The translations under genes were made by a program, and so were the position numbers. 46,865 nucleotides of DNA from a virus, in IMG/VR virus record IMGVR_UViG_3300036864_000079, positions 1 to 46,865 of that record. The stretch is one strand, 5' to 3'. Below are positions 23,996 to 33,710 of the stretch, in pieces; positions within the stretch are counted from its first letter, which is position 1, and each line of letters begins with the position of its first letter. A model generated the notes under the pieces. The model worked only from the letters and a program-made list of their open reading frames with translations, had not been told where the DNA came from and did not search any database.

Positions 23996-25222
23996 TTACG
24001 CCGCGGCTTTCTTGGCGACGAGCACACCGCCGGCCGCGTTGGCGACGAGCGGCGCGTCCTCGGGATCGTTCGAGTTCGCGACGAGCGAGACGACGCCGGC
24101 ACCTTGCAGGCCGTAGTCCACGGGCTGCAGGTTGACCTCGAGCTTTTGGAGCGTCGCGAGCGACATGGCGCGCAGCTCGCCCTCGGGGATCACGTTCGCG
24201 CTGTTCGCGAGGATGCGCTGAACGATGGGCTCGACGGCGTGCGCCTTCAGGCCGGCGGCCACGCCGTCGGCGACGAGCTTCGCCACGTCGGCGTGCGTGA
24301 TCGGGGTTGCCGCTGCGGCGGCCGCGGCTGCGGCATTCGCGGCGGGCTTCTTCGCGGGGTCCTCCATCGGCATTTCTGCCGCGGCGTTCGCCGCTTTCTC
24401 GAGGGCCTTGATCGCGCCCATTACCGCTGCGCGGCCGGCGTCGCTCATCTTCTCGAGCTCGGCGACGTCGAAGTTGACGGCGAGGTCTTTCAAGGCGGGG
24501 ATCTCCGCGACTCGCTTGTTGATCGCAAGAGCGGCGGCGACGATTTCGGAAGCCTTCATGGGTTGAACCTCGCAAGAGCAGTCGGTGGGTTTCATGCCGA
24601 GCGCGTTCAGCACGAGCGCGAAGCCGGCGGCGATCTTAGCTTTGACAGACTGGTCGACGTTCACTCGTGGCGCTCCGCAACCGTCGGCAACGCTACATGC
24701 ACCTATCTCGCCTGGCAAGAGGGCGAGGTGGTCGGGGCGCAGGTTTTCGTGTTTCACGGCGTACGGTTTGCCGTTCCACACGCCCGGTTGAACGAGCACG
24801 TCGGAGAAGTAGCCGGTGCTCACCTCGTACACTTTGTCGCCGTTGAGCATATGCCCGATCATCGCGGACTCGCCGAGCGCGTCCATTTTCTGCTCGTCGA
24901 GCCAGAGCTCGCCGCGCAGCCGATCCACGTCGAGCTTTGCGCCGAAGATCAGGCCGGCCGTGCGCTCGAGAATGTCGGGCGAGCTCGACGCCGACACGGG
25001 CTGGCCCTCCACCATGGGGTGAAGGATCGGCACGGGGCGACCGTTCCACGCTTCGGCGAACTTGCCGATCTCTTCGCGCGAGACGAACGCGCCGTTAAGG
25101 ACGCCCTCGACGATCAGCACCGCCGGCACGACTGTGTGCATGCGGCCGTCGTACAGCTCCCGGCGAACCGCTGCGTCGTTGCGCGTGTAGGTGCTGCGCG
25201 CGGTGGTGAGAGTTCCGGTCAT
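23996..25222 (-). CDS. Prohead protease fused to scaffold (DUF2213-type)
   Basis: 408 residues. The protease domain (about 12-185) shows H68 in ILHPM, VSASSSPD, the LDVDRLRGELWLDEQKMDALG block, S135 in YEVSTGY and H165 in RPDHLALLPGE, matching the DUF2213 prohead protease family with its Ser/His residues. Residues 200-408 are helical and Ala-rich (with an Ala run near 300) and act as scaffold, ending near QPVDYGLQGAGVVSLVANS. It would guide capsid assembly and then cleave itself and the capsid arm. The first 128 bases overlap the upstream gene. Confidence 0.8.
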   Translation of the reverse strand: MTGTLTTARSTYTRNDAAVRRELYDGRMHTVVPAVLIVEGVLNGAFVSREEIGKFAEAWNGRPVPILHPMVEGQPVSASSSPDILERTAGLIFGAKLDVDRLRGELWLDEQKMDALGESAMIGHMLNGDKVYEVSTGYFSDVLVQPGVWNGKPYAVKHENLRPDHLALLPGEIGACSVADGCGAPRVNVDQSVKAKIAAGFALVLNALGMKPTDCSCEVQPMKASEIVAAALAINKRVAEIPALKDLAVNFDVAELEKMSDAGRAAVMGAIKALEKAANAAAEMPMEDPAKKPAANAAAAAAAAATPITHADVAKLVADGVAAGLKAHAVEPIVQRILANSANVIPEGELRAMSLATLQKLEVNLQPVDYGLQGAGVVSLVANSNDPEDAPLVANAAGGVLVAKKAAA

Positions 25223-26333
25223 TTCGCGGGCGCCTCCACATGAGGGTGAGACCGTTGGCGCCGCTGATCACTTTCGGACGCCACGCGCAGCGGCAGTTCG
25301 GGTGGGCCGGGAGCATGTTACGGGCTTCGTCAATCGAAAACACCCGGCCCTCGAGCGCCTGGCACTCGGGGCACACCCGGTCGTCGCCGGTCGTGCTCCA
25401 CTCGGCCTCGACGTCAACGCCCGCGACGCCGGCTTCGTCGTACGCGTTCAGCGTGGCGTCGGCGTGAGCTGCGATCACTTCCGTTCGCGCCATCACGCGC
25501 GCGCGCGTGATGCCTATCGCCTCGACGCGATCCGCAAGCGCGCGGGCGATCTCGCGTGGGCCTCGGCCCTCGAGCAAGCCCTGCGCGAGCACGCGCGATA
25601 TCTGCACGTCCATCGCGTCCGTGATGTTGTCGAGGTCGGAGAACGCGCGCGTGTAGAGCTGGCCGATCCGGTCGGCGTGGATCGGGCGGTTGAACGCACC
25701 CGAGACCCACGAGTTCCCGACCTTGGCGCCGCTCTGGCGTAGCTTCGCGCCGGCGTCGGCGATGCCTTTCTGGTACGCGCTCTCGACGTAGACGTTCGTC
25801 CACGCGGTCGACGCGGCCTTCGTGATCGGCACGCCCTCGGAAATCTCGAGAATTCCCTGCCGCTCGGCTTGCCGGAGCCAGCGCATAAACGCCGCGCGTT
25901 TTTCCGCGGATCGGGGGAAGTCGAACGCTTTCCGGTGCGATTGCAGGCCGGCCGGGGGCGGCGCGAGGCCGAAGCCGTCGAGGTCCACGATCTGCTCGAC
26001 GATCTTCGCCTTCAGCGCGCGGAATCGACGCACGAGCTCGTTCTCGAACTGTTTGCGCAGCAGCGCCGTTTTCGTCGGGTCGCGCCGGCGCCGCCCGGCA
26101 TTTACGACGAGGGTGCGAAGCCCCCGCGGGAATCGCGGTGCCGGATCCGCGCTGGCCTGAGCTTCTACCGCCACCGCTGGCGTGGGGATCGCCACGGCGG
26201 GGGCGACGGTGGAAGCTCGAGCACGCCGCTCGAGCTTGCGCACCGCCCGCTCGAGCACCCGAATCGAGAGCACCGCGCGCGCGTGCACGGCTTTCAGGAG
26301 CGAGTGCGCGCGGCTCGTGGCTTCGGGTTTCAT
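25095..26333 (-). CDS. Mu gpF-like head morphogenesis protein
   Basis: 412 residues. The N-terminal half is helical and basic. Residues 230-350 carry the Mu gpF signature: ISRVLAQGLLEGRGPREIARALADRV, ARVMARTEVIAAHADATLNAY and the Cys/His end DRVCPECQALEGRVFS...AHPNCRCAW, a probable zinc site. These minor head proteins bind the portal and are often packaged. The last 42 codons overlap the protease gene in another frame and are basic, low-complexity sequence, so they may be dispensable. ATG 26333 overlaps the upstream TGA. Confidence 0.82.
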   Translation of the reverse strand: MKPEATSRAHSLLKAVHARAVLSIRVLERAVRKLERRARASTVAPAVAIPTPAVAVEAQASADPAPRFPRGLRTLVVNAGRRRRDPTKTALLRKQFENELVRRFRALKAKIVEQIVDLDGFGLAPPPAGLQSHRKAFDFPRSAEKRAAFMRWLRQAERQGILEISEGVPITKAASTAWTNVYVESAYQKGIADAGAKLRQSGAKVGNSWVSGAFNRPIHADRIGQLYTRAFSDLDNITDAMDVQISRVLAQGLLEGRGPREIARALADRVEAIGITRARVMARTEVIAAHADATLNAYDEAGVAGVDVEAEWSTTGDDRVCPECQALEGRVFSIDEARNMLPAHPNCRCAWRPKVISGANGLTLMWRRPRNDRNSHHRAQHLHAQRRSGSPGAVRRPHAHSRAGGADRRGRP

Positions 26334-28006
26334 AGGCTCTCGAGTGCCTCCACGGCGACGTCGAACGCGTGCACGCCCGTACGGATCGTCGGCTTCAGGC
26401 CGCGGCGCGAGAACATCGGGCAGTCATGGTACGCCTTCAGCGTCCACGCGCTCGAGACCTCGAGCACGTACGGCACCTCGTCGCGGAACACGACGTCGAA
26501 CGCGAGCCACTTCGTCCCGAGCGTGTCGGCGACCTCGACCGCGAGTTCCGCGGCCGCCACCTCTTGCGGCGTCGATAGCGTGAGCGGCCGGTGGTTGCCC
26601 GAGCCCGACGCGAACGGCGTGCCCGGCCGATTCTCGCGCACGAGCCCATACACGTACGAGCCGATCACGCACACCCGATAGTCGCGGTCGTTGCCGGGCT
26701 CGAACCGCTGCCAGTAGACGTAGCCCTGTTGCCGGCGGCCGTACGCGGTCGGGATTCCCTCGCCGAACGCGCGGCCGATTTCCGAGAGGGCGTCGTCGAG
26801 CGTGTGGAGCAGCCGCACGCCCTTCGATGCGCTCGAGTCGGCCGACTTCGAAATGATCGGGAAGCCGGGCAAGCCCTCGAGCGTGCCCGCCGCGATCGCG
26901 AGCGCCGTGGCGTGCGCGGTGCCGGCGTCGGTGCAATGCACCGTGGGCGGTAGCCACGGCTCGAGCGCGGGGAGCTGCGCCACCTTGTCGTCGTACCACG
27001 AGGCCTCCACCACCGTCGGTAGCGTGACGATGCCCCGCGCGTGGAGCTCGTAGACGAGGTTCTTCGACACCTCGCGCTGGGCGCCCTGCTGGTCGAGCCG
27101 CACGAAGCACTTGCCGTTCCCGACCGTGGCCGCGCGCGAAAACATCGTGCACGGGATCGCCCGCCGCTGGCACGCTTTCGCGAACTCGCCGCCCCAGCCT
27201 TTCGGATCCCGGTACGCGCGGAACCAGACGCGCGCCGGCCGCACCTCGCGCTCGACGCCCTCCCACGCGTCGCCGATCCATGGGTAGCGCCGGCCGGCCT
27301 CGCCCCACGGCTTCACGTTGCCGGGGAAAAACATCAAGCGAAGGAACGGGGGCGGGGCGAGCTGCGCGCGGCCGTTGCCATGGCGCGCAGTGAATCGCGG
27401 CGCGTAGCAGAACACGCCGTGGCCCTCGTCGAAGAGCGGCGTGTCGGGCGGGAGCAAGAGCGAGAGCACGGCTTGATCGCTCCCGATGTAGTGCTTGCGC
27501 GCCTGGGTGGCGATCCCCATGGGGTCGGCCATGAATCGCGCCCAGACGTCAGCTCGAGCGCCGGCCGTCACCTCGAGCAGCGAGCCGTTGAACGGGCGCG
27601 CCGAGCTCGTGCCCTTCAGGATTCGGAACGCGTCGTCGTGGTCGAAGATCGGGTCGAGCGAGGCCGTCGCGATCATGTCGAGGTCCATGCTCACGAGGCG
27701 GTCGCACCCGAACACGCGCTCCGCGTCGGGCGATAGCAGCTCGAGACGCCGGTAGCATTGCGGCGCGCCGTTCTTCTCGCTCCACCCGGGCACCTTGAGG
27801 GCGTCGAGCGTGCGCGGGGGCGGGATGATTTCGACGGCCGGGTCGATCCCTTCGCGCAAGTCGGTGACGCACGCGAGGTCGTGCGGGATCGTGACGTGCT
27901 TGCGCATCATCGCGGCCCAGCGGTTGACCTTTGCTGCGCCGCTCGCCCGGTCGTAGCCGTGGCGGGGCGGGCTCTGCTGCCAGAGCCAGACGAGGAAACG
28001 AATCAT
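26330..28006 (-). CDS. Bifunctional glycosyltransferase / ATP-grasp ligase
   Basis: 558 residues; two domains. Residues 1-240 look like a GT-A glycosyltransferase: a hydrophobic first strand (RFLVWLWQ), YRRLELL, the D-x-D metal motif in SMDLDM (108-110), FNGSLLEV, YIGSDQAVLS and DEGHGVFCY. Residues 255-558 form an ATP-grasp domain: PIISKSADSSASKGVRLL (K387), YWQRFEPGNDRDYRVCVIG, FASGSG (465-470), D504 and E516 in LEVSSAW, where Ser replaces the usual metal-ligand Asn. It would transfer a sugar and ligate an amino-acid-like or carboxylate group with ATP. It is inserted between portal and gpF genes with ATGA coupling, an unusual place for such an enzyme. Substrates are unknown. Confidence 0.75.
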   Translation of the reverse strand: MIRFLVWLWQQSPPRHGYDRASGAAKVNRWAAMMRKHVTIPHDLACVTDLREGIDPAVEIIPPPRTLDALKVPGWSEKNGAPQCYRRLELLSPDAERVFGCDRLVSMDLDMIATASLDPIFDHDDAFRILKGTSSARPFNGSLLEVTAGARADVWARFMADPMGIATQARKHYIGSDQAVLSLLLPPDTPLFDEGHGVFCYAPRFTARHGNGRAQLAPPPFLRLMFFPGNVKPWGEAGRRYPWIGDAWEGVEREVRPARVWFRAYRDPKGWGGEFAKACQRRAIPCTMFSRAATVGNGKCFVRLDQQGAQREVSKNLVYELHARGIVTLPTVVEASWYDDKVAQLPALEPWLPPTVHCTDAGTAHATALAIAAGTLEGLPGFPIISKSADSSASKGVRLLHTLDDALSEIGRAFGEGIPTAYGRRQQGYVYWQRFEPGNDRDYRVCVIGSYVYGLVRENRPGTPFASGSGNHRPLTLSTPQEVAAAELAVEVADTLGTKWLAFDVVFRDEVPYVLEVSSAWTLKAYHDCPMFSRRGLKPTIRTGVHAFDVAVEALESL

Positions 28007-29872
28007 CTACGGCCGCCGACGGTTTTCGGTGATCGTGTCGCGGTAGCTCACCGAGTCGTCCACGGGCTCGAAAATCTCCGGGCCGAGCACGATTTCGCCC
28101 GCGTAGGGCGTGATGCTCTCGAGCGCCTTCGACACGTCCTCGCCGGGCTCGTAGGTGATCGTGACGTGCGGCGTGTAGTCCACGAAATCCCACGACGCGC
28201 CGGCCTCGCGAATCTGGTCATGGCGCCAGCGCAAGTCGGAGCAGTTGAACTCGAGCACCACCGCGCCCGCCGGGCCGAGCTGCTCCACCACCCGGGGGCC
28301 ACCCGCGGGAACGACGAGCTGGCCGTCGGCTTCGCGGCTCCACGCTTCCGAGATTCGCATCCAGTCCACGGGCGCGCGGCTGTACGCGATGGTGACGTGC
28401 ATGGCCTCGCCGACGGTCGTCGGGAAGCCCTGCTCTTTCGCCCAGGCGGCGAGCTCGCGCCAGTTGAGCACGTCGCGGCGAACGTAGAGCGAGCGCGGCG
28501 CAGCGTTGGCCGTCATGGCGTCGGCCGCGGCCTTCACCTCGGGGTTCGTCTCGTCGAGCGGATCGGGCGCCGGCGCGAACGGTTCCTCCGGCGGCGCGTA
28601 GTCGGACACCTCCGAGAGCCCGAGCCACACGCGGAACTCTTCGGGCGGGACGACTTGCTCGGTGCCCGGCGTGCCGACGTACGTCGAGACGGCCGCGGCT
28701 TTCTTGCTCGCAATGTCGGCGCGTTGCACCTCGCCGAGCGTGTCGCTCTCGGGCCAGTTCACCTCGTAGTCGCCGCCCTCGGGCTGGGGCAGGATTCCGA
28801 ACGCTATGAACTTGTCGATGGTCGGCCGGACGATGTTCGGGCCGGCGTGCTGCTCGCGGCGCTCGACGATGCGGCCGGCCCAGTTGTTCTCGTCCTGAGA
28901 GCTGGCGAGCTCGCCCTGCTCGGAGCCGAGCAGGATTCGCTTCGGGATACCGTACGCGCCCGCGATGATCTCGAGCACCTTGTCGATGTGCGGCGAGGGG
29001 TCGTCGATCTGGCCGGCGAGGCTTTGCGGCTCGACGCCGCGGAGCAGCACGTCGCGCCGTAGCTTGTGCTGCATTTCCTCGATCTGTTCCTCCATCGCGA
29101 CTTTATCGGCGGGCTCCCACGTCGCGTCGGCTTCGGCCTTCCACGCGCGGAGCTGCGCGGCGTTCTGCCAGAACACCTCGGCCGATCCGCCGACGAGCTT
29201 GTCGAGGTCCATGAGCCGGTTCCACCCGCGCTCGAGGCGCGGGAGCCCGATGCTCGGATCGTCGAGCGCGTTCTCGGCAACGTGCACGATGCGCGAGGAA
29301 TCGACGATCACCGAGCGCCGGCCACCACCGAAGCCCGCCCAGTCCACGCCGGTCGTGAGGTTGTAGCGCACGGGCGTCCCGAAGTCGGGCTTCGTGGGGT
29401 CGGTGCCCCACGCCGTGATCTGTGCGCTCTGCTCGCCGAATGGCTTCAGGTACCCGAGCTTGTACGCCACACCCGGGCGCGCGGGCAGGTTCGGTTGCTC
29501 GGCGCCGCCCAGGCCGAGGAACAGCACGCCGTAGTGGCCCATGTTCACGAGCCGGTCGAGGCGGTGGAGCACCTGAAATAGTTTCAGGTCCTTGTTGAGC
29601 TGCTCGACGGCTTGCGCGAACGGGCCCTCGCCGTTCTCGTCGCCGAGCGCGCACACGGTCGGGCACTCGCGCCACGTCGCCGCCGGGTACGCGTCCACGA
29701 TGCGGGCCGCAATGTCGCCGCGGAGATAGGCGCCGAAGTAGTCCTCGGCGTTGAGCTCGCGCGGGTAGCCGAGCACGTCGTAGAGGTCGCGCTGGCCGCC
29801 GAATTGCAGGCCGGCGAGAGACGACATGAGCCAGCGCCACGTACGTTTGACCGGGTTGGAAGTGATCGCCAT
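28007..29872 (-). CDS. Portal protein with C-terminal 2H-phosphoesterase (Acb1-like) domain
   Basis: 621 residues. Residues 1-430 form a DUF1073-type portal (LYDVLGYPRELNAEDYFGAYLRGD in part, IVDAYPAATWRECP, LERGWNRLMDLDKLVGGSAEVFWQNA in pieces, IPKRILLGSEQGELASSQDE). After a Pro-rich linker (about 445-460), residues 475-610 carry two H-x-T motifs, MHVTIAYS (H492) and TPHVTITY (H569), 77 residues apart, the hallmark of 2H phosphoesterases such as the anti-CBASS nuclease Acb1. The portal half makes the DNA entry ring. The added domain could degrade cyclic oligonucleotide alarm signals. Catalysis is inferred from the motifs. Confidence 0.8.
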   Translation of the reverse strand: MAITSNPVKRTWRWLMSSLAGLQFGGQRDLYDVLGYPRELNAEDYFGAYLRGDIAARIVDAYPAATWRECPTVCALGDENGEGPFAQAVEQLNKDLKLFQVLHRLDRLVNMGHYGVLFLGLGGAEQPNLPARPGVAYKLGYLKPFGEQSAQITAWGTDPTKPDFGTPVRYNLTTGVDWAGFGGGRRSVIVDSSRIVHVAENALDDPSIGLPRLERGWNRLMDLDKLVGGSAEVFWQNAAQLRAWKAEADATWEPADKVAMEEQIEEMQHKLRRDVLLRGVEPQSLAGQIDDPSPHIDKVLEIIAGAYGIPKRILLGSEQGELASSQDENNWAGRIVERREQHAGPNIVRPTIDKFIAFGILPQPEGGDYEVNWPESDTLGEVQRADIASKKAAAVSTYVGTPGTEQVVPPEEFRVWLGLSEVSDYAPPEEPFAPAPDPLDETNPEVKAAADAMTANAAPRSLYVRRDVLNWRELAAWAKEQGFPTTVGEAMHVTIAYSRAPVDWMRISEAWSREADGQLVVPAGGPRVVEQLGPAGAVVLEFNCSDLRWRHDQIREAGASWDFVDYTPHVTITYEPGEDVSKALESITPYAGEIVLGPEIFEPVDDSVSYRDTITENRRRP

Positions 29873-31123: not shown

Positions 31124-31584
31124 TTCGGCGGGGCCGGGTCCACAATGAAGAACTCGATCCGGTCGAACTCGACGTCCTCGGGGCCGGCGTCGTCCTCGCC
31201 GCGCCGGAGCCCGAGCCGCAGGCCGCGCTTCTGGTACGCCGGGTGCCGGTGGAGCAGGTAGAACCGAAGGTTCTCGGGCGTGTAGTCCTCGAGCGTGCGC
31301 TCGGTGCGCTCGATTTCTTTGCCGGCGGCGTCGAGCTTCACGCGCGTCTCGGTGCGCTGGCGCCCCTGAATGGCGTCGGCCAGCAGCCGCGACTCGGCGG
31401 CGTCGAGAAACGTGGCCTCGGCCTCGTCCCACTCGGCGGCGAATTCCTTGTCGGCCTTGCGCTTGTCGTAGAGGTGCTGGCGGTTCATTTCCGCCGCGCG
31501 CGCGCTCGCCGACACGTTGCCGGATTTCGCGAGCTGCTCGAGGAACGCCGCCCGCCGTTTCTTGGTGAACGACTTACGCCGCAT
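31120..31584 (-). CDS. terS: Terminase small subunit
   Basis: 154 residues. Starts with a basic HTH (SFTKKRRAAFLEQLAKSGNVSASARAAEM in part, RQHLYDKRKADKEF), the standard terminase small-subunit fold for DNA recognition, followed by ESRLLADAIQGRQR and an oligomerisation region. The C-terminus (EDYTPENLRFYLLHRHPAYQ) is typical of the group. The ATG at 31584 lies 11 bases inside the end of the FkbM gene, and its stop overlaps terL. Confidence 0.85.
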   Translation of the reverse strand: MRRKSFTKKRRAAFLEQLAKSGNVSASARAAEMNRQHLYDKRKADKEFAAEWDEAEATFLDAAESRLLADAIQGRQRTETRVKLDAAGKEIERTERTLEDYTPENLRFYLLHRHPAYQKRGLRLGLRRGEDDAGPEDVEFDRIEFFIVDPAPPK

Positions 31585-32272
31585 CGTTCGGCACGAAGAT
31601 CAGGTCGGAGCCGTGGAACCCTCCGTCGTGCTGCACCTCGTCGGGGAGCGTGTACACCTCGGTCTCGCAGCGGTAGCCCAGGCGGGAGAGCCATACCATA
31701 AGCTCGCCACGCGTGCGGCCGTAGCGTTCGATCAGCAGGTTCTCTTCGGCCACGATCACGGGCCGGCACCGCTCGAGCGTTCGGCGCGCGCCCTTGCACA
31801 CCTCGAGCTCGTAGCCCTCGACGTCGAGAAACAGGGCGTCGAGCTTGGCGACGTGGAGCTCGTCGATACAGAGCATGCCCACGGGCACGGTCGCGCCGAG
31901 GTCGGGCTGCTCCGTGACAAAGTGCATGCCGTTCGATTCGGCCGAGCGGTGGAGCGCGGCCACGCCCGACGACTGGCCGAGGGCCCGGTGGACCACGACG
32001 GCGTTCGAGGTGCCGGCGAGGTTGCGGGCGGCGCACGCGTAGTTCTCGGGGTCGGCTTCGAACGCGAGCACCGACACAAAGCGCGATGCCAGCTCGAGCG
32101 GCCAGAGCCCGCAACGGGCGCCGCCCTGAATGGCGACGTAGCGGCCGCGGACGTAACGCAGGGCGCGCTCGATCTGCTGGCGCGCGAGCGCGCGGCCGGC
32201 CTCGTCGTTCAGTTGCGCGTCAGGCCGCCCCGCGTCGCCGTCCGGTATCCACCACCCGTTGACCTCGAGCAC
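31574..32272 (-). CDS. FkbM-family SAM methyltransferase
   Basis: 232 residues from GTG 32272, one base overlap with the DNA methylase stop. Motif I-like YVAIQGGARCGLWPLELA, VLAFEADPENYACAARNL (acidic SAM-ribose loop), HRALGQSSGVAAL and the family signature ALFLDVEGYELEVCKGA are present, then RPVIVAEENLLIERYG. FkbM enzymes O-methylate sugars or polyketides; in polysaccharide clusters they cap glycans. In this phage the gene lies between the terminase and a DNA methylase, near glycosyltransferases, so glycan methylation is plausible but unproven. Confidence 0.8.
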   Translation of the reverse strand: MLEVNGWWIPDGDAGRPDAQLNDEAGRALARQQIERALRYVRGRYVAIQGGARCGLWPLELASRFVSVLAFEADPENYACAARNLAGTSNAVVVHRALGQSSGVAALHRSAESNGMHFVTEQPDLGATVPVGMLCIDELHVAKLDALFLDVEGYELEVCKGARRTLERCRPVIVAEENLLIERYGRTRGELMVWLSRLGYRCETEVYTLPDEVQHDGGFHGSDLIFVPNDAA

Positions 32273-33591
32273 TAGTGCACCGCGTCGTCTGGGCCCTTCG
32301 CGTCGTCGCCGATGCGCTGCTGAGTGATCTCGGTGAACGTCGGGCCGTGGTCGTCGCCGAGGCGCGCCTCGAGGCTGCGCAAACGCATCATCCGGCCTAT
32401 GGTCACGTCGCACCACCCGGGCGAAATGTCGGCGGCGAAGCACACGCGGTCGAGCTGCGCGGCGGCCACCATGGTCGAGCCGGATCCGCAGAACGGCTCG
32501 GCCACGTTGTCGCCCGGGCCGGTGCTGTTCTCGATCAGCTCCCGGAGCAGGCCCACGGGCTTCGCGGCGTTGTGCTCGCGCTCGGCGCCGGTCGGGCGGT
32601 TGTAGCGCAGCACGTTCGGCTTGTGCACCGAGCGTTGGCCGGCGGGGCGGTGGCCCATCGCGGTTTGCTTCGGGAGCTTCGCGAAGAACCCGATCATCTC
32701 GTGCGTGTTCGCGTAGTTCGAGCCGAGGCCGGCGCCGCCCTTGTCCCACACGAGCAGGTTCTTCGGCTCCATGGTCGGGATTCGCTTGCACGCTTGCCAG
32801 ATGGCCGGCCACGAGCGCCAGTCGCAGCAAATGTACGCGTGCCCGAACCACGCGAGGTGGTCCTTCGCAAGCGTCAGCACTTTCTCGAAGAACGGCAGCA
32901 CCATGTTGTCGTCGGCAATGTCCGACGCGATGCCGGTCGCGCTTCCGTAGATCGCGTAGGGCGGGTCGGTGACGATCGCGTGGATAGGCGCGCCGCCGAT
33001 CAGGCCGGCGAGGGATTTCTTCGCGAGCGAGTCGATACACGCAAGGCGATGGGGCCCGATGTGCCACACGTCGCCCAAGCGGGTGATCGGCTGCGCGGGG
33101 ATCGTGCCGAAGTCGTCCTCGCCCGACTGGCCGGCGGCGTTGTGCTCGCGCTGGTTCCGCGCGGCGTTGGCTTTCTTGCGTACCTCACGCTGGCCGGCGA
33201 CGTCGAACCCGACCGTCTCGAGCGAGAAGCCCGAGGCCGCGAGCTCGTCGAACTCGAGGGCGAGCACTTCGAAGTCCCACCCGGCGTTCTCGGCCAGTCG
33301 GTTGTCGGCGATCACGTACGCGCGCGCCTGGGCGTCGGTGAGGTGGCCCAGTTCGATGCACGGCACGACTTTTAAGCCCAGCTTGCGGGCCGCGAGAACA
33401 CGGGCGTGGCCGGCGATGATGGACGAGTCTGCGCGCACGAGCACGGGAGTCGTCCACCCGAACTCCCGGATGCTCGCGGCAATCTCGGCGACTTGGGCGT
33501 CGCTGTGCGTGCGTGAGTTTCGGGCGTACGGAATGAGGGTTTCGATCTTGCGCTCGACGATCTCGAGCCGCGGTTTCGCGGGTTTCGTCAC
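32272..33591 (-). CDS. ParB-like domain fused to DNA adenine/cytosine-N4 methyltransferase
   Basis: 439 residues from GTG 33591, with a GGAGG site and the ATCAGCAAC leader. Residues 5-100 are a ParB/sulfiredoxin-like domain (IPYARNSRTHS, SIREFGWTTPVLV, IIAGHARVLAA, VIADNRL). Residues 165-400 are a DNA methylase with DPPY (209-212), a WFGHAYICCDW helix and FCGSGST (367-373, SAM pocket); motif IV precedes motif I, indicating the beta class. Such orphan phage enzymes protect DNA from restriction. No cognate nuclease lies nearby. Confidence 0.9.
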   Translation of the reverse strand: MTKPAKPRLEIVERKIETLIPYARNSRTHSDAQVAEIAASIREFGWTTPVLVRADSSIIAGHARVLAARKLGLKVVPCIELGHLTDAQARAYVIADNRLAENAGWDFEVLALEFDELAASGFSLETVGFDVAGQREVRKKANAARNQREHNAAGQSGEDDFGTIPAQPITRLGDVWHIGPHRLACIDSLAKKSLAGLIGGAPIHAIVTDPPYAIYGSATGIASDIADDNMVLPFFEKVLTLAKDHLAWFGHAYICCDWRSWPAIWQACKRIPTMEPKNLLVWDKGGAGLGSNYANTHEMIGFFAKLPKQTAMGHRPAGQRSVHKPNVLRYNRPTGAEREHNAAKPVGLLRELIENSTGPGDNVAEPFCGSGSTMVAAAQLDRVCFAADISPGWCDVTIGRMMRLRSLEARLGDDHGPTFTEITQQRIGDDAKGPDDAVH

Positions 33592-33710
33592 GACAGTTCC
33601 TCCGGGGGCGTTGCTGATTGTCGGGTTGTCGGGTCCAAGGGTACGCGCGGACGTGCGGATTGTGCACGAATCCGGGGGGCTTTCGCCCCGTTCTGATACG
33701 GTTCCGCGCG
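33592..33710. promoter_or_regulatory. Leader and intergenic region upstream of the ParB-methylase
   Basis: Contains the leader of the leftward methylase gene (ATCAGCAA on the minus strand of 33611-33618, then GGAGG) and, on the other side, the upstream sequence of the small rightward gene at 33711. A GC-rich hairpin-like tract (GGGGGGCTTTCGCCCC) lies at about 33675-33690. No convincing -35/-10 pair was identified. Confidence 0.4.

Follow-up and report, generated by a model that had tools for sequence, protein, structure and literature searches.

Here we report that a phage head operon contains a single gene whose product joins an N-terminal GT8-like glycosyltransferase (GT) to a C-terminal RimK/LysX-like ATP-grasp ligase. 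The gene lies in a 46,865-nt stretch of DNA, referred to here as the window, and its relatives in other phages occur as fusions, as separate neighbouring genes and with an alternative ATP-grasp partner. We suggest, with a probability of roughly one half, that it belongs to an accessory glycan cassette in which the GT transfers a sugar and the ATP-grasp amidates a sugar carboxylate, probably on the virion.

The open reading frame encodes 558 residues from an ATG start on the minus strand and occupies the slot between the portal and Mu-F genes of the head operon (Table 1). Its stop codon overlaps the start of the gpF-like gene in an ATGA (GAGAGCCTATGAAACCC), while its own ATG is directly abutted by the TAG stop of the upstream portal gene (CCGTAGATGATT). 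The first-pass annotation had described a GT/ATP-grasp fusion inserted between these two genes and ATGA-coupled to the second. Profile matches to both neighbours and the overlap read in the sequence bear out the position and the coupling, and the fusion itself is upheld by a PHROG 1962 match in the N-terminal half, a LysX/ArgX-like model of the C-terminal half and full-length homologues. The window is GC-rich and long spurious reading frames are frequent in it by chance, so that length is no proof of a gene and homology has to supply it. Full-length homologues with 48-56% identity are present on other IMG/VR contigs and, together with dN/dS values below 0.5 in the close pairs measured, rule out a chance reading frame.

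In the haloarchaeal tailed virus Hardycor1 (MT152698) the MuF gene starts only 4 bases after the portal gene, and the slot is thus empty there. Hardycor1 has the best match to the window portal among sequenced phages (40% identity over 63% of the query). The C-terminal domain of the window portal resembles Acb1, an anti-CBASS 2H phosphodiesterase (two HxT motifs; Pfam Acb1 E 1.4e-35), so that a counter-defence-like domain is fused to this structural protein; portals of this kind are found in L001, L003 and L009.

Table 1. Coordinates of the fusion gene, its domains and motifs, and associated genes in the window.
Feature	Position	Strand	Evidence
GT8-like glycosyltransferase / RimK-LysX-like ATP-grasp fusion	26330..28006	-	558 aa; ORF, PHROG, homologues, profile, structure model
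N-terminal glycosyltransferase domain, residues 1-256	27239..28006	-	phrog_1962; 39-sequence GT alignment; family profile
DxD motif, D108-L-D110	27677..27685	-	invariant in all 39 aligned GT domains
PGNVKPW (228-234), counterpart of GT8 HxGxxKPW with Pro for the metal-binding His	27305..27325	-	GT alignment
C-terminal ATP-grasp ligase domain, residues 257-558	26333..27238	-	VIA-align structure matches; LysX profile E 2e-7
ATP-binding Lys, K387	26846..26848	-	invariant in intact phage and two cellular relatives
ASGSG motif (466-470)	26597..26611	-	invariant in intact phage relatives and two cellular relatives
Metal site D504, E516, S518 (E-x-S for E-x-N)	26453..26497	-	Ser conserved; aligned with RimK E-x-N
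Mu gpF-like head morphogenesis gene; overlaps the fusion at an ATGA	25095..26333	-	Phage_Mu_F E 3.1e-19; junction
Portal protein (Phage_portal_3), C-terminal Acb1-like domain	28007..29872	-	Phage_portal_3 E 1.4e-28
FkbM-family methyltransferase, possible glycan-cassette partner	31574..32275	-	Methyltransf_21 E 2.5e-16

Pfam RimK matches the C-terminal half at E 0.0055, under the Pfam cut-off, and the family profile of this half reaches LysX at E 2e-7 and RimK at E 8e-5. The AlphaFold model is confident over this region (pLDDT mostly 80-95), and VIA-align matched its residues 260-558 to 5k2m (LysX/ArgX) with Z 25.7 over 258 residues at 2.4 A; further matches were to 3vpd (Z 24.8) and to RimK (5zct, Z 23.6 over 261 residues). 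As modelled, the C-terminal half is confirmed as a complete ATP-grasp, pre-domain included, of RimK/LysX-like type. Its NCBIfam scores lie far under the cut-offs of the named families (17 bits vs 275.6 for LysX_arch, 15.6 vs 350 for MptN), and Pfam TupA (PF14305) has no match to the window protein at E 0.1.

The motif residues listed in the first-pass annotation are all in place: D108/D110, K387, GNDRD (438-442), FASGSG (465-470), D504, E516 and, where Asn is usual, S518. K387, D504 and E516 do not vary among the intact phage relatives, nor in two bacterial ones; in the full-length mixed alignment, GT-only rows spilled into the C-terminal half, and only rows truly holding an ATP-grasp were counted. 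Ser518, which aligns to the Asn of the RimK E-x-N, is likewise invariant in the intact phage copies and the same two bacterial relatives, and a third, more distant bacterial relative has Gln. The third metal ligand of ATP-grasp enzymes is usually, though not universally, this Asn. Because it is conserved in this way, Ser518 is, as judged from the alignments, a trait of the subfamily and not a sign of decay. Genuine decay has the pattern seen in L017, in which the fused ATP-grasp is without the K387 region and D504 while the GT half is intact.

Residues 29-253 of the fusion match the PHROG 1962 glycosyltransferases (E 3.9e-8), and we aligned the window copy with 38 other phage GT domains. The profile of these 39 sequences matches, among solved structures, the Skp1 galactosyltransferase (E 5e-4) and glycogenin (E about 0.02), and Pfam Glyco_transf_8 matches two of the 39 (best E 1.4e-4) and not the window copy; on these grounds we describe the half as GT8-like. 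The canonical GT8 motif is HxGxxKPW, in which the His binds metal. This His is absent from the PGNVKPW of the window copy and is found only in L043-L046, L049, S20 and P1, the position being occupied elsewhere by Pro, Leu, Ala, Thr, Asn or Ser. With Ser518, both halves of the fusion therefore differ from the textbook metal ligands. The AlphaFold model is of low confidence over the GT half (block pLDDT about 30-85), and structure searches gave ATP-grasp matches only, which for so poorly modelled a region is no evidence against a GT-A fold; the profile matches and motifs suggest a GT-A fold.

Scanning with the GT half gave 49 viral loci, and the two-domain order recurs among them. Fusions were identified in the window, in one phage group (L001/L002/L015) and in L003, L009, L020 and L042, in addition to the decayed L017. 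In the GT tree they fall into two supported clades, and a single origin of the fusions is possible; L019, whose contig ends inside the GT, groups in the window clade. The two halves also occur as separate genes. In L004/L013 the ATP-grasp gene, a gene for an NAD-dependent epimerase and the GT gene follow one another with ATGA junctions. L021 has a TupA-like ATP-grasp gene immediately before its GT gene, the two overlapping, and in L022 TupA lies downstream of the GT gene. L017 (3914-6779) has TupA-like ATP-grasp and sulfotransferase genes upstream of its fusion, an apparent non-orthologous replacement of the decayed ATP-grasp. Matches to the TupA model lie in the partner genes of L017 and L021. 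One GT family is thus coupled with two distinct ATP-grasp families.

The C-terminal partner of the GT appears exchangeable in a further sense, as other members bear a different, small C-terminal domain. In L024 (6694-6924) this domain, about 75 aa long (GRaLvLGYap.VW...ASPEAA.HWP...FCGR), stands after the GT in the place of the ATP-grasp, and a similar one is present in L006, L025, L028, L030-L032, L035-L038, L051 and L004. A match on a faecal contig, L014, turned out to be an ordinary bacterial RimK-like gene and was set aside.

The relatives of both halves are under purifying selection. Between L004 and L013, dN/dS is 0.16 for the ATP-grasp and 0.09 for both the GT and the epimerase, and the ATP-grasps of the L001 group differ by 3-4 synonymous and 0 nonsynonymous changes, a small sample for the fusion itself. 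The window copy compared with L009 gives 0.44-0.56, which is weak evidence at such high synonymous divergence.

We scanned 87 proteins encoded beside the GTs and found mainly portal proteins, major head proteins and head proteases, together with GT2 enzymes, methyltransferases, a UDP-sugar dehydrogenase, an epimerase and TupA. The full-length fusions of other uncultivated phages also lie in head modules. In L042 a prohead-protease-like gene and the major capsid gene (Phage_capsid E 3.4e-42) precede the fusion and its next gene, with translational overlap between the fusion and head genes as in the window. Glycan-related genes vary around this core. Methyltransferase and GT2 genes stand before the fusion in L009, and L015, which is about 99% identical to L001 on both flanks, has a GT2 gene (about 0.72 kb extra) between gpF and the fusion that L001 does not (L015:5436-6188 vs L001:5957-5986), so that the cassette evidently gains and loses genes. 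GT2, FkbM methyltransferase and PmgO-like genes lie beside the GT in S20, and this GT family has FkbM genes in its company in L043, L044, L046, L048 and L049 as well; the FkbM gene of the window is located upstream of the terminase genes. A fusion of a ParB-like N-terminal domain with a DNA methyltransferase (32272-33651) is likewise encoded upstream of the terminase genes. The only UDP-sugar dehydrogenases that we saw lie next to other GTs, those of L035 and L036, and no sugar-acid gene was seen in the head operon of the window.

We searched sets of 369 and of 398 bacterial genomes for cellular relatives of the ATP-grasp; the three that came up are distant, and each is in a locus resembling a polysaccharide cluster. 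In two of these loci flippase, GT4, GT2, sulfotransferase-like or hexapeptide genes were confirmed with Pfam, while the third locus was judged by eye alone. The ATP-grasps of L068 and L069 have, like the fusion, an ASGSG motif, an E-x-S and the three catalytic residues (Lys, Asp, Glu); they differ in being stand-alone chromosomal genes, 26-27% identical and with another N-terminal region.

The proposal in the first-pass annotation that one polypeptide combines glycosyl transfer with ATP-dependent ligation is well supported by these homologous and non-homologous ties of the GT family to ATP-grasp enzymes, namely the fusions of several lineages, the adjacent separate genes, the pairing with TupA and the cellular relatives in polysaccharide loci; that both steps act on one and the same acceptor, as the annotation also proposed, is conjectural. 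A direct precedent for the mechanism is Cj1438 of Campylobacter jejuni, a single chain made up of a GT2 and a TupA-like ATP-grasp; experiments in that work and its predecessors showed that the ATP-grasp amidates glucuronic acid, with serinol-phosphate or ethanolamine-phosphate, and that the GT acts on the amidated product (PMC11800379). Both proteins have the GT at the N-terminus and the ATP-grasp at the C-terminus, whereas Cj1438 pairs GT2 with TupA where the fusion pairs a GT8-like with a RimK/LysX-like domain, has an extra middle domain, and belongs to a bacterial capsule locus and not to a phage head operon. The PHROG 1962 enzymes P1 PmgQ, P7 HdmD and S20 TVGG_00041 are of the same GT family as the N-terminal half. 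They are stand-alone proteins with no recognised ATP-grasp partner; those of P1 and S20 retain the HG-motif His that the window copy is without, and TVGG_00041 lies directly before the head closure gene, within a glycan cassette. We found no assigned chemistry for GTs of phage structural operons such as that of P1 pmgQ.

GT/ATP-grasp fusions (Cj1438) and phage GTs of this family (P1 PmgQ) are accordingly known already, and the novelty would lie in the pairing of a GT8-like with a RimK-like domain inside a phage head operon. A search of 50,697 sequenced phage records gave no such fusion, tblastn against phage records with a stand-alone ATP-grasp relative as query gave no close match, and the open-access literature that we searched yielded no report of a GT joined to an ATP-grasp in a phage. 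Amidoligases are reportedly the subject of Iyer et al. 2009.

We envisage that an accessory (“moron”) gene for glycan modification was taken up into the head operon at the boundary of portal and Mu-F and became translationally linked to the head genes. The GT8-like half would transfer a nucleotide-activated sugar. ATP-grasp ligases generally convert a carboxylate to an acyl phosphate and then form an amide with an amine, and the C-terminal half would act in this manner as an amidoligase of a polysaccharide-associated RimK/LysX-like subfamily, using ATP to phosphorylate a carboxylate whose acyl phosphate is then attacked by the amine. The likeliest carboxylate would be that of a sugar acid (uronate), either handled by the GT half or adjacent in the glycan, as the pairing of this GT family with TupA and the UDP-sugar dehydrogenases of L035 and L036 suggest. 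The product would be a sugar bearing an amide-linked amine or amino acid. The position in the head operon favours a virion protein from the same operon as the likeliest acceptor, although the acceptor could be a host polysaccharide. The activity, the sugar, the amine, the acceptor and the display on the virion are all things that we infer. Against sugar amidation it must be said that we found no characterised enzyme of this exact ATP-grasp subfamily, that the closest solved folds (LysX, ArgX, RimK) act on protein glutamates and not on sugars, that no sugar-acid gene was seen with the fusion in its operon, and that the metal-ligating His is missing from the GT half.

RimK, LysX and ArgX ligate amino acids to protein glutamates, and the C-terminal half resembles them over the whole domain (Z 21-26), with ATP and metal residues aligned; it departs from them in its E-x-S, its sub-cut-off NCBIfam scores, its glycan context and its attachment to a GT. 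The resemblance, together with the head-operon position, invites the reading that the ATP-grasp is a RimK-like peptide ligase acting on a carboxylate of a head protein, such as a C-terminal Glu, while the GT glycosylates the same protein as a second, independent modification. We consider this unlikely. The cellular relatives of this ATP-grasp are in polysaccharide loci, TupA is a further partner of the GT family and its homologue in Cj1438 forms an amide on glucuronate, and an epimerase lies between the ATP-grasp and GT genes where these are separate.

We regard it as no more probable that the fusion modifies a surface polysaccharide of the host, for superinfection exclusion or receptor masking, instead of the virion. 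Its cellular relatives in surface polysaccharide loci would fit such a role, as would the precedent of E. coli K-12, in which prophage-encoded O-antigen glycosylation blocks other phages (PMC11990801), and phage GT clusters have already been interpreted in this way (PMC7824862). However, the gene is inside a head operon and translationally overlaps head genes in both the window and L042, and the phage operons that we examined showed neither a flippase nor a membrane partner. It is very improbable that the ATP-grasp half is inert and structural, leaving the GT half to work alone: the substituted metal ligand and the decay in L017 beside an intact GT are consistent with it, but the other catalytic positions are invariant, the Ser is common to two bacterial relatives, and dN/dS is low in relatives. 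Less probable still is a modification of DNA or of a small molecule, given the head-operon position, the polysaccharide-locus relatives and the failure to recognise any base-hypermodification gene near the fusion, despite the DNA methyltransferases that the window also encodes.

Based on these observations, we favour an amidated glycan, probably displayed on the virion, as the product of the fusion, and propose, somewhat more tentatively than for this gene itself, that some tailed phages decorate their own capsids with an amide-capped sugar-acid glycan made by one bifunctional enzyme, and that its GT and ATP-grasp parts have been joined, separated and exchanged from phage to phage, a RimK-like domain for TupA. 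From the fusion, the split form and the TupA pairing around one GT follows a testable prediction, namely a sugar that is amidated and probably carried by the virion. Were this confirmed, it would establish a new type of decoration on phage particles, with a bearing on their adsorption, their stability and their escape from recognition by the host, and would provide amidoligases from a new source.
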